Shown: positions 56,133 through 61,545 of the stretch, one piece after another | Position numbering within the stretch: the first letter of the stretch is position 1 | Layout of the letters: every line of letters begins with the position of its first letter | NCBI RefSeq assembly: GCF_900143545.1 | Contig: NZ_FREV01000004.1 | Coordinates: 372,001-436,000, forward strand | Direction: 5' to 3' | Source of the DNA: Loktanella sp. Alg231-35 | GTDB lineage: Bacteria; Pseudomonadota; Alphaproteobacteria; Rhodobacterales; Rhodobacteraceae | DNA: 64,000 nt | The notes under the pieces: generated by a model | Seen by the model: the letters and a program-made list of their open reading frames with translations, nothing else | The model's database searches: none | What the model was told of the DNA's origin: nothing | Program-made: the position numbers and the translations under genes

Positions 56133-57749
56133 ATGCGCGAGTGGTGGCGGGATGCGGTAATCTATCAGATTTATCCGCGCTCTTTTCAGGACGACAATGG
56201 CGACGGGGTCGGTGACCTTGCAGGGATCACCCGGCGCTTGCCTCATGTGGCCTCGCTTGGGGTCGATTGTATCTGGCTGTCGCCGATTTTCACCTCTCCG
56301 CAAAAGGACATGGGCTATGACGTGTCTAACTACACGGATATTGACCCGCTCTTTGGCACACTTGCCGATTTTGATGCGCTGATTGCGCGAGCGCATGAAT
56401 TGGGCCTGAAGGTGATCACCGATCAGGTGCTGTCGCACACATCCGATCAGCACCCATGGTTCCGCGAAAGCCGGGTCAGCCGCGACAATCAGAAATCCGA
56501 TTGGTATGTCTGGGCCGATCCGCTGCCGGATGGGTCCCCCCCGACCAACTGGCACAGCCACTTTGGCGGCCCAGCGTGGGAATTCGACCCGCAGCGCGGT
56601 CAATACTATCTGCACAATTTCCTTGCTGCCCAACCTGACCTGAACTTCCACAATCCTGACGTCGTTGATGCAATTTTGGAAACCTGCCAGTTCTGGCTGG
56701 ATCGTGGTCTTGATGGCTTTCGCCTTGATACCGTGAACTACTATTTCCACGATCAAGATCTGCGGTCCAATCCGCCTGCACAAGCCAAACCACAGGTGAT
56801 GGCCACCGATCTTTATGGGATGCAGGATAATATCTACAACAAAACACGACCAGAGAACCTGGGCTTTCTCGAACAACTCCGCAATCTCACCGATCAATAT
56901 GAAGACATTATGATGGTTGGCGAAGTCGGTGAAATGGGTAACCGTTCGATCCAGATCATGGGTGAATACACGGCCGGGTCCAGCCGTCTGCATATGGCCT
57001 ATAGTTTTGCCATGCTCGGCCCCGATTTCTCGGTTGATCATTTTCGCAGCTGTATCGAAGGCTTTCAGACAGGCGCACCCGACGGCCACCCCAAGTGGTC
57101 TTTCAGCAACCATGATGTACCCCGTCACGTCACCCGCTGGGCCGCGCATGCCGTCGATGAGAACACGATCGCACATATGACCTGTGCCATGCTGATGAGC
57201 TTTGAAGGCACGGTCGGAATCTATCAAGGTGAGGAACTGGGCCAGACCGAAACAGAGCTTACCTATGACGAACTCACCGACCCACCAGCGCTACGCTATT
57301 GGCCGGCGGTTAAAGGGCGCGACGGATGCCGCACACCGATGGTTTGGGAAAAAGAAGCACCCCATGCGGGGTTCTCGGATGCGGCGCCTTGGCTGCCAGT
57401 CAAGGCACCTCAGGCGGCCAAGGCAGTTGATGCGCAAGAAGACAGCTCTGACAGCGTTCTTCAGTTCTACCGCAAGATGATCAGCTTTCGAAAATCCCAA
57501 TCTGCGCTGACGCGAGGAAAGACCGAGTTTGTACGGTTGGCAGAGCCTCTTTTGGCATTTCGCCGTGTGAATGGAGATCAGAACCTCATCTGCGTGTTCA
57601 ACCTGTCGAAAGATGAGCACCAGCTTAGCATAACCGGAAACGCCGCCATCATTGGGCCGCATCACGCCGTTCTGGACGCTGCTCGGCTGACGCTGCCCGG
57701 CAACGGTTTCGCCTTCCTGGAAAATGTGGATGATCTGGCGCGCGCCTAA
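56133..57749 (+). CDS. Alpha-glucosidase (GH13)
   Basis: A 538-residue enzyme of family GH13, subfamily like AglA/oligo-1,6-glucosidase. The conserved regions are DQVLSHTSDQHPWF, GFRLDTVNYYFHD (nucleophile aspartate), MVGEVGE (acid/base glutamate) and FSNHDVPR (third aspartate). No signal peptide is seen, so it acts in the cytoplasm on imported alpha-glucosides such as maltose, sucrose or trehalose-type sugars. It stands alone, without the aglEFGK transporter genes usually beside it, and converges on the histidine kinase gene with a four-base overlap. Confidence 0.9.
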   Translation: MREWWRDAVIYQIYPRSFQDDNGDGVGDLAGITRRLPHVASLGVDCIWLSPIFTSPQKDMGYDVSNYTDIDPLFGTLADFDALIARAHELGLKVITDQVLSHTSDQHPWFRESRVSRDNQKSDWYVWADPLPDGSPPTNWHSHFGGPAWEFDPQRGQYYLHNFLAAQPDLNFHNPDVVDAILETCQFWLDRGLDGFRLDTVNYYFHDQDLRSNPPAQAKPQVMATDLYGMQDNIYNKTRPENLGFLEQLRNLTDQYEDIMMVGEVGEMGNRSIQIMGEYTAGSSRLHMAYSFAMLGPDFSVDHFRSCIEGFQTGAPDGHPKWSFSNHDVPRHVTRWAAHAVDENTIAHMTCAMLMSFEGTVGIYQGEELGQTETELTYDELTDPPALRYWPAVKGRDGCRTPMVWEKEAPHAGFSDAAPWLPVKAPQAAKAVDAQEDSSDSVLQFYRKMISFRKSQSALTRGKTEFVRLAEPLLAFRRVNGDQNLICVFNLSKDEHQLSITGNAAIIGPHHAVLDAARLTLPGNGFAFLENVDDLARA

Positions 57750-58672
57750 AAACGGATCTCAAACACGGCGCCCGGCTGATCCAACAGCCGGATTTCAGCA
57801 CCCTGTGCCTGCAACATGCGTTGCACAATCGGCAGGCCCATGCCCGTGCCACCTTCCGCCCGGCGGGTGGTAAAGAACGGATCAAAGATGCGATCACGAT
57901 TGCCGGGGCTGATGCCAGAACCATCATCCGCGATCAGCAGGCGACCGGCTTGCCAATCAAATTGCACCGCAGTTGCGCCATGGGCCAGCGCGTTGCCAAT
58001 CAGATGGGTCACAACAAGGCGCATCACATCAGCCGAAAGCGGAATAGTCCCGTCTGTAACTACCTTTGAAGCAGAATGCTCGCGCAGGACGTCTGACAAC
58101 ACACATGTCCCACCCGGCATCGGTTCTTGCGCCTGCGCCAACGCCCGCTGCCCATCCAATAGCGCGTCCATCCGCGCAGTTGCATCGCTGATGCCGGACA
58201 GCAGTTTCGTCCGATCCTGCGGCGCGAGGTTGGGATCATCCAGCAATTCCGCCGCTCCTTGAATGATGGTCAACGGCGACTTCAGCTCATGAGTGACGTG
58301 GTCGGCATAGGAACGCAAAACAGCCTCGCGGCCACGCAACCGCGCTGTCATCTCGATCACCGCCTGTCCCAGTTGCGAAAACTCTGGCGTGCCGAAATGT
58401 ATGGGCGGTATGTCGGCCCCTTCCTGTTGCACAAATCCGGTCAGCTCACGGACGGGGCGCAGGACCAAGCGCCACAGCAGCCAGCCCAGCACAAGTGTCG
58501 CAATCAACGCCATCCATCCGATCAGCCACGTCGTCTCGGCCCAGCCAAGCACCCCACCGGCCACTCTGAAATAGCCCACACCAATGAGGGGCAACAAAAA
58601 CACCGTCGCAAGCGTTCCCCCCAGCACAAGTGCCAAAGGTGGGCGCCACTTTCGGATCACGCGCCGCGACAT
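57746..58672 (-). CDS. Sensor histidine kinase
   Basis: A 308-residue kinase. Two helices (about 13-36 and 47-69) enclose a periplasmic loop of only about ten residues, so there is no room for a sensor domain. HAMP-like sequence follows, then the phosphorylated histidine H128 in DHVTHELKSPLT, an N box with GNALAHG, and G boxes DDGSGISPGN and GGTGMGLPIV. It overlaps the response regulator gene by 16 bases and is the last gene of the three-gene operon with DUF4173. Sensing is probably through the membrane or the DUF4173 protein. Confidence 0.88.
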   Translation of the reverse strand: MSRRVIRKWRPPLALVLGGTLATVFLLPLIGVGYFRVAGGVLGWAETTWLIGWMALIATLVLGWLLWRLVLRPVRELTGFVQQEGADIPPIHFGTPEFSQLGQAVIEMTARLRGREAVLRSYADHVTHELKSPLTIIQGAAELLDDPNLAPQDRTKLLSGISDATARMDALLDGQRALAQAQEPMPGGTCVLSDVLREHSASKVVTDGTIPLSADVMRLVVTHLIGNALAHGATAVQFDWQAGRLLIADDGSGISPGNRDRIFDPFFTTRRAEGGTGMGLPIVQRMLQAQGAEIRLLDQPGAVFEIRF

Positions 58673-59337
58673 GCACCCATCCGAATCCCCACACCGTGGA
58701 CGGTATCAATGGCATCTGGGCAACCCGCCGCCGCCAACTTGCCACGCAAATTCCGCAGATGGCTGTCCATTGTGCGGTCGCTGACATGAATATTCGTGCC
58801 ATAGATCGCATCCACTAATTGCGGGCGCGACATCACGTGATCTGGCCGCGCAATCAAGCGTTCAAGCAAGTCCATCTCGCGCGCCGTCAATGTGACTTGC
58901 GCGTCGTTGACATGGCACAAATGGCGTGCGGGATCGACACTTAGCACACCGCGCCGCATGACCATTTGCGTCTGTGTACCACCTTGCGTCCGCTTAAGGA
59001 TGGCCCGGACCCGCGCCACCAGTTCACGCGGCGAAAAAGGTTTCGAGACATAATCATCCGCACCAAGTTCCAGCCCTACGATGCGGTCCACCTCATCGCT
59101 ATGAGCGGTCAGAAACAGGACTGGTACATCCGAGGTCTTGCGCAAGGTACGACATACCGCAAGCCCGTCCATCTCTGGCATTCCAATATCCAGCACGATC
59201 AGGTCCGGTTGCAAGCTCTGCGCTGTTTCCAGCGCTGCACGCCCGTCACCTGCTTCAGCCACGGCAAAGCCTGCCTGTCCCAAGGCAATCCGCACAACAT
59301 CGCGGATTTGGGCATCATCATCTGCGACCAGGATCAT
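58657..59337 (-). CDS. OmpR-family response regulator
   Basis: A 226-residue regulator. Receiver domain with acidic pocket D6-D8, phospho-acceptor D50 (LIVLDIGMPEMDG), T77 and K99 (VSKPF); C-terminal winged helix (about 125-226, TLTAREMDLLERLIARPDHVMSRPQL region). It would bind direct repeats with about 11-base spacing; such repeats (TGTGCAG) lie upstream of its operon. Coupled to the DUF4173 gene (four-base overlap) and to the kinase. Confidence 0.9.
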   Translation of the reverse strand: MILVADDDAQIRDVVRIALGQAGFAVAEAGDGRAALETAQSLQPDLIVLDIGMPEMDGLAVCRTLRKTSDVPVLFLTAHSDEVDRIVGLELGADDYVSKPFSPRELVARVRAILKRTQGGTQTQMVMRRGVLSVDPARHLCHVNDAQVTLTAREMDLLERLIARPDHVMSRPQLVDAIYGTNIHVSDRTMDSHLRNLRGKLAAAGCPDAIDTVHGVGIRMGACRGA

Positions 59338-60770
59338 TGCGTATCCTCCAATGCGGCCAAACTACGATGCAGCCGCGCGTTGCGGTAGCCCCATTCACGC
59401 CAATCGTTGCGCGTACTCAGATAGGGGCGCCAACTGCTACAAACTGCGTGGCCTGTGCGCAACTCATAGGCGCGAATGGCGGGCACCGCGCCCTCACTCA
59501 GACCGCACAGGTAGTGATCACCGGTGCGCAGGTCAGCCAGATTATTGCGTGCAATCAACCCGTCGATATTCACTAGATTGCAGCAGTAGATCGCAACAAG
59601 GCCCAGACCAAATGCGCGCTGCATGAACCACCCAACAGACTGCCGCCCTATCATCTGCATAAGGATCAGCAGCAGACCAAGGGCCACCACCACCATCCAG
59701 ACAAAAGCGGCAACGCGCAGGCGGGTCAGCCCATAGAAATCGACATAAAGGTCAAGCCGCAAGATGGATGAGATTACCAACAGCACTGTCTGCGCCACCC
59801 AAAGATAAAGTAAGCGACGCACCCAGTTTGCTTCACCCAGATGTGGCTGCGCCAACAACGCAAACAAACCGGCAAGGACCGCAGTGACAAGCAAGGGATA
59901 CGCTCCGCGATGAGCGTATTCGGCATAGGTCATCCCATCTGGCAGCGCCGCGCCGCCCCAGAGGTAACCGATATCCAATGTGGTCTGCGTCAGAAAGATG
60001 ATGTTGAACACTACCAATGCCCGCTGCACAGATCGCTGGTTCAGGAAGGCAGAGCGGAGCCTGCGCTGCTGTCTGGTTCTGGGACGTGTAAGATTGGGCA
60101 TCATAGGGGCCAGACGCAAAAGCGGCCAAAGCAAACCTGCAACCATGCTCCATAGCGTGACCCGCCCAATTTCTGGCAAGATATCCATGTCCAGCTGGCC
60201 AAGCACGGCCAGCCACTTGTCCGCAATCGGATTCGCCGCCGCAAACAGGATAAGAAATAAACCGCCCACGCCCACTGGCAGTGCCCAGTCGAACAGCGTT
60301 GATCTAACCGTTCCTTTTGATGGCTTCGGAACGCGCATGGCGAAAAGATCCCGCACCGTCTGGACCACACCAGCCCCCGGCAAACGACAAAGCGCGCGGA
60401 GCCAGTTGTCGGGCTGCCATTCTGGCGCGGCCAGGATGACAGCGGACGCTGTCAGCCCGATCATAGCAATGGCGAAGGTGCCGAATTGCACAACCTCTAG
60501 CAATGGTGCGGCGGCAATGAACAGGATCGTGGCAGCCAGCACCATGCGTCGCCGGTCGACGCCGCGGTAGACAGTCAGGACAATCGCAACATTGGCCAAC
60601 ACAAACCAAAGCGCTATGCCCGCTCCGGGTCGAAAACCCCACATCAGCAAATCCGCACAAGACAGTGCGAGGATCAGCAACGGCCATGCCCGCAACCCCT
60701 TTGGTGGGTCTTCATCATCTAGCCACCATGCATCATTCGCCAATCGTCTTGGCACGCCTCGCACAACCAT
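59334..60770 (-). CDS. DUF4173/DUF4153-family membrane protein
   Basis: A 478-residue protein with about ten to twelve helices. The family stretch YAEYAHRGAYPLLVTAVLAG is present near residue 284. The C-terminus (about 400-478) is soluble and contains CCNLVNIDGLIARNN, four or five cysteines and RNDWREWGYRNARL. Function of the family is unknown. It is first in an operon with the OmpR-type regulator and the kinase that lacks a sensor domain. AAGGGAC precedes the ATG. Confidence 0.82.
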   Translation of the reverse strand: MVVRGVPRRLANDAWWLDDEDPPKGLRAWPLLILALSCADLLMWGFRPGAGIALWFVLANVAIVLTVYRGVDRRRMVLAATILFIAAAPLLEVVQFGTFAIAMIGLTASAVILAAPEWQPDNWLRALCRLPGAGVVQTVRDLFAMRVPKPSKGTVRSTLFDWALPVGVGGLFLILFAAANPIADKWLAVLGQLDMDILPEIGRVTLWSMVAGLLWPLLRLAPMMPNLTRPRTRQQRRLRSAFLNQRSVQRALVVFNIIFLTQTTLDIGYLWGGAALPDGMTYAEYAHRGAYPLLVTAVLAGLFALLAQPHLGEANWVRRLLYLWVAQTVLLVISSILRLDLYVDFYGLTRLRVAAFVWMVVVALGLLLILMQMIGRQSVGWFMQRAFGLGLVAIYCCNLVNIDGLIARNNLADLRTGDHYLCGLSEGAVPAIRAYELRTGHAVCSSWRPYLSTRNDWREWGYRNARLHRSLAALEDTQ

Positions 60771-60815
60771 GTCTCGTCCCTTTCTGCTCTTGTCAGAAAC
60801 GAGTTAGACCCGCGC

Positions 60816-60855
60816 TGTGCAGGAGAGATCGCACAGATGTGCAGTTTTTGTGCAG
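60816..60855 (-). promoter_or_regulatory. Direct repeats upstream of the DUF4173-two-component operon
   Basis: TGTGCAG occurs at 60816-60822, 60838-60844 and 60849-60855 (plus-strand reading; CTGCACA in the direction of the operon). The last two are exactly 11 bases apart and the first is 22 bases from the second, the spacing used by OmpR/PhoB/CreB-type dimers. They lie 46-85 bases before the DUF4173 start. This is the only recognisable content of the 91-base gap. Confidence 0.55.
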
Positions 60856-60861
60856 AGCGGC

Positions 60862-61545
60862 TTAGCCTTCGGTCGACGCGCGAATGGCCCGAATGTTGGC
60901 GCCGTAAGGTGCCGGGTCTGACACCGATCCACCTTTGAAAACAGCCGAACCTGCGACCAAAACGTCGGCGCCCGCCGCTGCAACCAGTGGCGCAGTTGTG
61001 GGGTCAACACCGCCATCAATTTCGATATGGATTGGCCGATCACCGATCATCGCGCGTAATTCGCGCACTTTCTCTACCTGCGAATGGATGAACTTTTGAC
61101 CGCCAAAACCGGGGTTCACAGTCATGACACAGATCAAATCCACCATGTCCAACAGCATCTCAACCGATGACGCTGGCGTGCCGGGGTTGAGCGCGACACC
61201 GGCCTTGGCCCCTGCCCCGCGGATCGCCTGCAATGTGCGGTGGATATGCGGGCCAGCCTCAACATGGGCGGTAATGATGTCGGCACCGGCCTTGGCAAAG
61301 CCTTCGATGTAGGGGTCAACTGGGGCAATCATCAGATGTACGTCCATGACACCCTTGATATGCGGACGGATGGCTGCACAGGTGGCGGGTCCGAAGGTGA
61401 TATTAGGCACGAAATGCCCATCCATGACGTCAACATGCACCCAATCGGCACCTTGCGCCTCGATCGCTTCGCACTCAGCACCGAAGTTGGCGAAATCCGC
61501 CGAAAGAATGGAGGGGGCGATCTTGATAGAGCGGTCAAATGACAT
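60862..61545 (-). CDS. rpe: Ribulose-phosphate 3-epimerase
   Basis: A 227-residue TIM-barrel enzyme that interconverts ribulose 5-phosphate and xylulose 5-phosphate. [13 protein letters not shown] at the N-terminus, [34 protein letters not shown] and EIDGGVD (metal and phosphate sites) are all present. ATG 61545 is preceded by TGAGG and gives the conserved N-terminus; the open frame to 61686 is rejected. Confidence 0.94.

Follow-up and report, generated by a model that had tools for sequence, protein, structure and literature searches.

We analysed a window of 64,000 nucleotides from Loktanella sp. Alg231-35 (Alphaproteobacteria, Rhodobacteraceae; contig NZ_FREV01000004.1, positions 372,001 to 436,000). 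The window is the whole of this stretch, and positions below are counted from its first letter. It contains an operon of three genes, encoding a membrane protein of the DUF4153 family, a response regulator and a histidine kinase, preceded by three direct repeats. Our main subject is the peptide encoded by the first codons of the DUF4153 gene, which in other genomes persists as a separate small open reading frame (mini-ORF) after the rest of the gene has been lost. The main features of the locus are:

59334-60770, minus strand: DUF4153 membrane protein gene, 478 residues, first of the operon (ORF; PF13687, 204 bits)
60708-60770, minus strand: N-terminal peptide MVVRGVPRRLANDAWWLDDED, codons 1-21 of the DUF4153 gene, surviving elsewhere as a free mini-ORF
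58657-59337, minus strand: OmpR/PhoB-type response regulator, 226 residues, CreB-like (PF00072, PF00486; CreB the best NCBIfam match)
57746-58672, minus strand: histidine kinase, 308 residues, two membrane helices with a short loop and a CreC-like catalytic part (HisKA, HATPase_c)
60849-60855, minus strand: putative operator box 1, CTGCACA (contains TGCAC)
60838-60844, minus strand: putative operator box 2, CTGCACA, 11 bp from box 1
60816-60822, minus strand: putative operator box 3, CTGCACA, 22 bp from box 2 and 33 bp from box 1

The operon and its products

The ORFs at 60770-59334, 59337-58657 and 58672-57746 overlap successively by 4 and 16 bases, in agreement with a first-pass annotation made from the sequence alone. 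That annotation had labelled the first product DUF4173. This label was wrong, since the 478-residue protein matches DUF4153 (PF13687) in a Pfam profile search with 204.2 bits, for a gathering cut-off of 27. Its identification of the second product as an OmpR-type regulator was right: the protein combines a receiver domain (PF00072, 115.6 bits) with a winged-helix Trans_reg_C domain (PF00486, 68 bits), as expected of the OmpR/PhoB type. Among 101 NCBIfam families, CreB matches the regulator best, at 227.5 bits and below the cut-off of 273, and the identity with CreB of Escherichia coli is 41%. The best NCBIfam match of the kinase is CreC, also below the cut-off (111.4 bits for 356) and covering only profile positions 184-466. 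Hydropathy places the hydrophobic stretches of the kinase at residues ~14-32 and ~48-71, with ~13-20 residues between them. The periplasmic loop is thus short, as had been noted, the earlier figure of about ten residues being slightly low. With two membrane helices, a very short loop and no other sensor domain, the kinase fits the intramembrane-sensing type.

The predicted structure of the DUF4153 protein has roughly 10-12 long helices, with a mean predicted local distance difference test score (pLDDT) of 79.7. Structure comparison yielded no counterpart of this fold in the PDB (best E 0.67), and a sequence profile searched against the PDB gave no match either.

The N-terminal peptide can persist where the membrane domain is lost

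We searched 56 genomes of the genus for the regulator, counting as orthologs matches with E below 1e-100, and found it in 39 (including G031, where it carries an internal stop). A kinase match overlaps or abuts it in all 39, so the gene order that the first-pass annotation proposed to check is conserved in relatives. The N-terminal segment of DUF4153, about 20 residues with the consensus RGVPxxLxxD[AG]WWL, is present at every one of these 39 loci, with a variant reading DALWL in G050. The membrane domain, on the other hand, is gone from 7 of the 39, which retain both the short-loop kinase and the regulator. In these seven genomes a search with the DUF4153 protein matches only 22-44 residues at its very start, and there is no other copy genome-wide. 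Six of the seven have a 20-codon ORF (MVVRGIPKRLARDAWWLDDE, MIIRGIPRKLSKDAWWLDDE and alike) that ends in a stop codon, with the regulator following 52 or 85 bases on. The seventh, G006, results from a separate in-frame internal deletion that left a 47-codon ORF whose stop overlaps the regulator start. Another species, G012, shows a fission of the gene: a 20-codon peptide ORF ends in a stop and the membrane ORF restarts in another frame, with an 8-base overlap. This fission, together with the absence of the membrane half elsewhere, indicates that the gene was split in one species and that the membrane half was lost in others.

Outside the genus, we used a sample of 295 genomes of the family, about one per genus, with a threshold of E<=1e-64. 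The regulator was found in 60 of them, 58 being from other genera, and all 58 loci were examined. DUF4153 with its membrane domain is encoded at 32 of these loci (two of which, L089 and L109, are cut at contig ends, and three, L100, L101 and L123, are not intact), an N-terminal mini-ORF alone at six (L085, L086, L091, L124, L125 and L132) and neither at 19, the remaining locus (L113) being cut off. The motif is found in 27 of the 30 assessable DUF4153 proteins of other genera. Hence, in these unselected samples, the peptide is kept at 7 of 7 loci without membrane domain in the genus and at 6 of 25 in other genera.

An order-wide search for the motif gave a match in 94 of 390 genomes. Twenty-three matches lie in frames of under 170 codons, and 22 of these are directly upstream of the regulator. 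The one exception (G101, E=0.00175) is probably a chance match; the 4.5 kb examined there contain no regulator. The motif is specific to the locus: among the 295 family genomes there are 36 matches at E<1e-4, of which 34 are at this locus and two (G262 and G187) on another contig; in these two genomes the regulator-side DUF4153 runs off the contig end. One of the 34 locus matches, in G178, has both DUF4153 and the regulator frameshifted. Beyond the family (class-wide, 240 genomes), three of the four strong DUF4153 matches adjoin such a regulator (L143, L144 and L145), and none of the 21 loci with weaker matches does so within the 1.5 kb flanks checked.

The mini-ORF sits between the operator and the regulator gene. 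Its product has neither a signal sequence nor a membrane helix, and the free peptide is therefore presumably cytoplasmic, as would then be the N-terminus of DUF4153. ORFs of 20 codons are easily overlooked by gene callers, and this putative control element may lack annotation in lineages without the membrane half.

Selection on the peptide and history of the losses

Within the genus, differences in codons 2-20 of the mini-ORFs are mostly synonymous. Between G016 and G052, whose 52-base scars are alike, there are 7 synonymous differences in 11.75 sites and 2 nonsynonymous ones in 45.25 (Fisher p=9e-5 on rounded counts). In three groups of species with free peptides, we compared the ratio of nonsynonymous to synonymous differences per site (pN/pS) of the motif with that of the tail of the mini-ORF. 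It is 0-0.37 in the motif and 0.47-1.95 in the tail in group g44 (five species), 0-0.04 and 0.40-0.51 among the three closest species of group g146, and 0.27 and 0.51 in the single pair of group g121. The mini-ORFs of G312 and G586 differ by a few bases between two near-identical genomes and are uninformative, and the genus of G338, with one genome, adds nothing. These comparisons suggest that the motif is constrained above the tail, clearly in g44 and less so elsewhere, and they support purifying selection on the N-terminal peptide of ~20 residues.

We built a tree of the regulator and kinase with 113 rows. The 27 peptide-only rows require 14 changes, at least 8 of them forced by well-supported branches; 14 of the 27 had been chosen for carrying the motif, so that the share of such rows in the tree is not a frequency. 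G012 stands beside the peptide-only group of the genus with weak support, and the losses in G052 and in G004/G016 amount to one or two events. The tree omits G031, one row from a metagenome-assembled genome and the duplicate or cut loci L106, L113 and L139; L115 was excluded by the program, and L126 and L116 are on long branches.

Putative operator boxes upstream of the operon

The three repeats read TGTGCAG at 60816, 60838 and 60849, with spacings of 22 and 11 bases as first reported; on the coding strand they form CTGCACA-N4-CTGCACA with a third CTGCACA 22 bp on. There is a single exact copy of the double box in the window and a single one in the whole genome, where four further places match with one mismatch. 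The heptamer by itself is not enriched in the window (17 found for 14.5 expected). To assess conservation we assembled 104 promoters (41 of the genus, 58 of other genera and 5 named loci), with dinucleotide shuffles as controls. TGCAC-N6-TGCAC is exact in 62 (0 in shuffles) and present with at most one mismatch in 78 (1.75 in shuffles), so the repeats are indeed kept in relatives. A third TGCAC, with at most one mismatch, lies exactly at +33 in 64 promoters (0.05 in shuffles). Seven of the 26 promoters without a double box belong to the genus, and six of these seven keep boxes two and three, box one being degraded. Counted genome-wide with at most one mismatch, the double box is more frequent than a reversed-pattern control in 43 of the 56 genus genomes, as frequent in 7 and less so in 6. 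It is the conserved arrangement in relatives, and not the frequency of the heptamer in the window, that shows the repeats to matter.

The cre/blr tag is TTCAC-N6-TTCAC in the available excerpt of PMC4689548, and the boxes here have the same direct-repeat geometry with another half-site, so that the CreB-type geometry recognised earlier stands. Because these putative boxes are conserved and differ from the tag by one base per half, autoregulation of the operon by its regulator, already suggested in the first-pass annotation, is likely.

A search for the regulon with the triple box returned, among the matches listed, the operon's own promoter and a few other places. Five genomes of the genus group in which DUF4153 is split or reduced to the peptide (G004, G005, G012, G025 and G039) have the same arrangement 84-88 bases before the start of a gene of the endonuclease/exonuclease/phosphatase family, whose product begins with a hydrophobic stretch; the gene is truncated in G004, and the third box is exact in two of the five.

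Several other occurrences were noted in passing. In G040, represented by two overlapping contigs (L060, 16-5032; L070, box at 2051), a triple TGCAC operator precedes an exosortase gene. Behind this gene come a VIT/vWA gene, whose product has an anchor-like tail at its C-terminus, then a CreB-like regulator (55% identity) and a kinase of 516 residues. Tails that look similar by eye end immediately before the regulator in L131, L133 and L134. In six genus genomes (L063, L065, L068, L069, L072 and L081), a gene named by eye as frr (ribosome recycling factor) is preceded at 98-115 bases by CTGCACA-N4-CTGCACA, exact or with one mismatch and lacking the third box; this double box may reflect chance or clade inheritance. 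L077 and L078 have a double box with one mismatch 168 bases before a DUF882/Peptidase_M15 gene, which may be a cell-wall target. G002, G007, G014, G024, G029 and G038 each have many copies (at least 6 to 33 matches) of a separate GTGCAC repeat with an 11-base period (GTGCACNNNNC), apparently unrelated to the operon; among the matches listed, this repeat is scarce or absent in most other members of the genus.

A putative control peptide for a CreBC-like pair

Our preferred reading, to which we give an even chance, is that the operon encodes a CreBC-like two-component system under its own control and that its first gene supplies a control peptide in the cytoplasm, RGVPxxLxxD[AG]WWL, either as a tail or in free form. 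The phosphorylated regulator would bind the three TGCAC boxes, spaced by 11 and 22 bp, and activate its own operon together with a few other genes. The peptide made from the operon would dock on the kinase, or on the regulator, and adjust its output in a feedback loop. In most species it would do so as the N-terminal tail of DUF4153, which keeps it close to the kinase at the membrane, where signals sensed by the membrane part could gate it. Where the membrane part has been deleted, the peptide would be made free. Translation of the mini-ORFs, binding of the boxes by the regulator, the docking partner, the sign of the effect and the signal are presumed elements of this scheme. The retention of the motif suggests that the peptide tail, rather than the membrane part, controls the sensor kinase.

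Several observations weigh against this reading. The regulator and kinase occur without the peptide at 19 of the 57 assessable loci of other genera, so the peptide is dispensable. The motif is absent from the DUF4153 proteins of L084 and L092 and broken by a stop in L112, these being the three exceptions among the 30 assessable ones, and L142, outside the family, has an intact DUF4153 with neither the motif nor an adjacent regulator. The peptide has no sequence match in the PDB, and the first 20 residues of the DUF4153 model are of low confidence (pLDDT 56-57). Selection is less clear in comparisons of G004 or G005 with the split G012, where the pN/pS of the motif is ~0.4-0.5. Within g146, comparisons with L085 or L209 give 0.22-0.51 for the motif and 0.33-1.14 for the tail, implying constraint on the tail as well. 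Synonymous sites are near saturation and the compared segments are short. Finally, docking on the kinase or the regulator is read from gene neighbourhood only. The N-terminus of the kinase has a conserved W-[RK]-[PQ] stretch in 111 of the 113 rows of the tree, and this stretch is also present where the peptide is absent, so it gives no evidence of docking. As to the stop in L112 (~1104-1160), it falls in frame at the first Trp position and the rest of the frame is open; it may be a sequencing error or real.

The regulator and kinase live without the peptide and the reverse is rare, a one-way dependence that fits an accessory regulator of the pair. For this reason we favour a feedback peptide that docks on one of these two proteins; the membrane domain would be an optional tether that may also gate the signal. 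A broader proposal, about which we are rather more doubtful than confident, is that RGVPxxLxxDAWWL serves CreC-like kinases or their regulators as a docking module, cytoplasmic and portable. Its two interchangeable forms would be the tail of a many-helix membrane protein, tying control to a membrane signal, and a free microprotein, retaining the feedback alone.

If the peptide acts in this way, it would give the first functional handle on DUF4153 and add a cytoplasmic microprotein to the small proteins that tune kinases. The fission and the repeated loss of the membrane half would then be natural experiments parting a control peptide from a sensor, and provide ready-made pairs of species with and without the membrane half in which to ask what that half contributes.

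Alternative explanations

The first-pass annotation saw in the whole membrane protein the natural sensing partner of a kinase unable to sense by itself, forming an envelope-stress or metabolic sensor. LiaF with LiaS and SaePQ with SaeS would be comparable arrangements. The neighbourhood and gene order are conserved, as this would predict. In addition, none of the 17 genus genomes lacking a regulator ortholog has an intact DUF4153 (no match in 15, pieces in G030 and G034); in G810 it is likewise in pieces, with no regulator in the stretch examined. Many residues of the membrane part are invariant in an alignment of 40 hand-picked homologs, from which L084, L092 and L112 were excluded; W15, W16, Cys 422 and Cys 444 are among the invariant positions of the protein. 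The two cysteines follow the last long predicted helix and could, speculatively, form a periplasmic disulfide. The claim is nevertheless weakened by the repeated loss of the membrane domain from loci that keep the short-loop kinase and the regulator, with 7 such losses at the 39 genus loci and, at the 57 assessable loci elsewhere, 6 peptide-only cases and 19 with neither. Furthermore, some neighbours of DUF4153 are longer kinases, of 510-519 residues, in which a large N-terminal region is retained (L102, L108, L119 and L129). We thus regard a sensing partnership of the whole protein as unlikely.

For the free forms, the mini-ORF could instead be a cis-acting leader, with its translation, or stalling at the WW pair, setting the translation of the regulator. 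Relative to the regulator start, the free peptide ORFs that were read end anywhere from 85 bases upstream to 20 bases downstream, and several overlap that start, suggesting translational coupling. Yet in most species the motif lies ~1.4 kb upstream and opens a long membrane-protein gene, which makes control through the nascent N-terminus implausible, and the spacing between motif and regulator varies widely. This leader function seems to us rather improbable, slightly more so than a sensing partnership.

DUF4153 might also be an output protein that the regulator induces and that protects the envelope, as a counterpart of CreD, with the motif serving as a membrane-targeting or stability tag. 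The gene does directly follow the operator, and in the available excerpt of PMC4689548 CreBC activation is usually read out through creD expression; we hold this to be a poor candidate, as it leaves unexplained why the motif is still under selection once the membrane domain is gone. Last, that the mini-ORFs are functionless, decaying remnants of DUF4153 is very improbable: the G312/G586 copies, differing by few bases, are silent on selection, as are the single-genome cases L091, L124, L125, L201-L203 and L206, but the pN/pS of the motif is low in the genus and in g44, where the tail is freer, and wherever DUF4153 was lost beside a regulator, the part kept as an ORF is the N-terminus and no other (in L206 there is a weak second match, 16 bits in all).

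Relation to known systems

The first-pass annotation found the layout reminiscent of CreBC-CreD while holding that the membrane protein is not CreD. As in CreBC-CreD of E. coli, Pseudomonas and Stenotrophomonas, or BlrAB of Aeromonas, a multi-helix inner-membrane protein is encoded with the pair, CreB and CreC are the best-scoring families, and the operator (TGCAC-N6-TGCAC) differs from the cre/blr TTCAC-N6-TTCAC of the PMC4689548 excerpt by one base per half-site. Several features differ: both proteins score below the CreB and CreC cut-offs, the kinase lacks a periplasmic sensor, DUF4153 stands in place of CreD (PF06123) and is encoded first, and the third box at +33 and the DAWW peptide are further differences. 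Homology of DUF4153 with CreD was not detected (hhalign probability 0.2% with E. coli CreD), which bears out that part of the annotation. A relation with the Cache clan was rejected, DUF4153 being called unrelated, dropped from the clan and given no function in the available excerpt of PMC4822843; that excerpt does not treat the DUF4153-regulator-kinase operon.

The Pho box of PhoB consists of 7-bp direct repeats with 4-base gaps, an 11-bp period; the operator here has another half-site and an extra box at +22. Kinases with two helices and a very short loop, together with an operon-encoded accessory protein, are also described for LiaFSR and GraXSR, and SaePQRS is of the same kind. Unlike these systems, the operon studied here has a CreC-like kinase with an OmpR/PhoB-type regulator in Alphaproteobacteria, and its accessory membrane domain is often lost, the peptide being kept in many such cases.

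Small proteins are known to tune kinases, as MgrB does for PhoQ, within the PhoPQ regulon, and ScrA for SaeS; MgrB is a membrane protein and ScrA acts within the membrane (excerpts of PMC8404706 and PMC12239555). The peptide described here, known from sequence, may be likened to them, and its feedback would resemble that of MgrB on PhoQ while acting in the cytoplasm. It differs in having no membrane helix and in forming, in the majority of species, the N-terminal end of a large membrane protein. The literature searched on DUF4153, DUF4173, CreBC and small-protein control of kinases gave no account of the DAWW peptide, and a search for CreBC with Rhodobacteraceae or Alphaproteobacteria gave no mention of CreBC among the matches listed.

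Upstream gene and possible leader hairpins

Two further features lie between the operon and its upstream neighbour or beyond:

60862-61542, minus strand: rpe (ribulose-phosphate 3-epimerase), immediately upstream of the operon on the same strand (context)
60781-60799, minus strand: candidate 5' leader hairpin, TTTCTG-N7-CAGAAA, just upstream of the ribosome-binding stretch

At 60781-60799 and at the corresponding place in relatives, the candidate hairpin comes shortly ahead of the start codon, and the ribosome-binding stretch lies in or beside its 3' arm. The best stems average 6.7 pairs in 41 leaders, for 4.7 in single-base shuffles, and the arms vary between species with complementarity kept in many, as seen sequence by sequence. 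A covariation analysis on the MAFFT alignment gave zero consensus pairs and Rfam gave no match in the leaders, and we do not claim the hairpin as established. Four loci without the peptide (L104, L105, L110 and L111) share a similar leader upstream of the regulator, with GGCACGCA followed by GTCCCCTCGC and CCCGGC-like arms, and this shared leader may fold.

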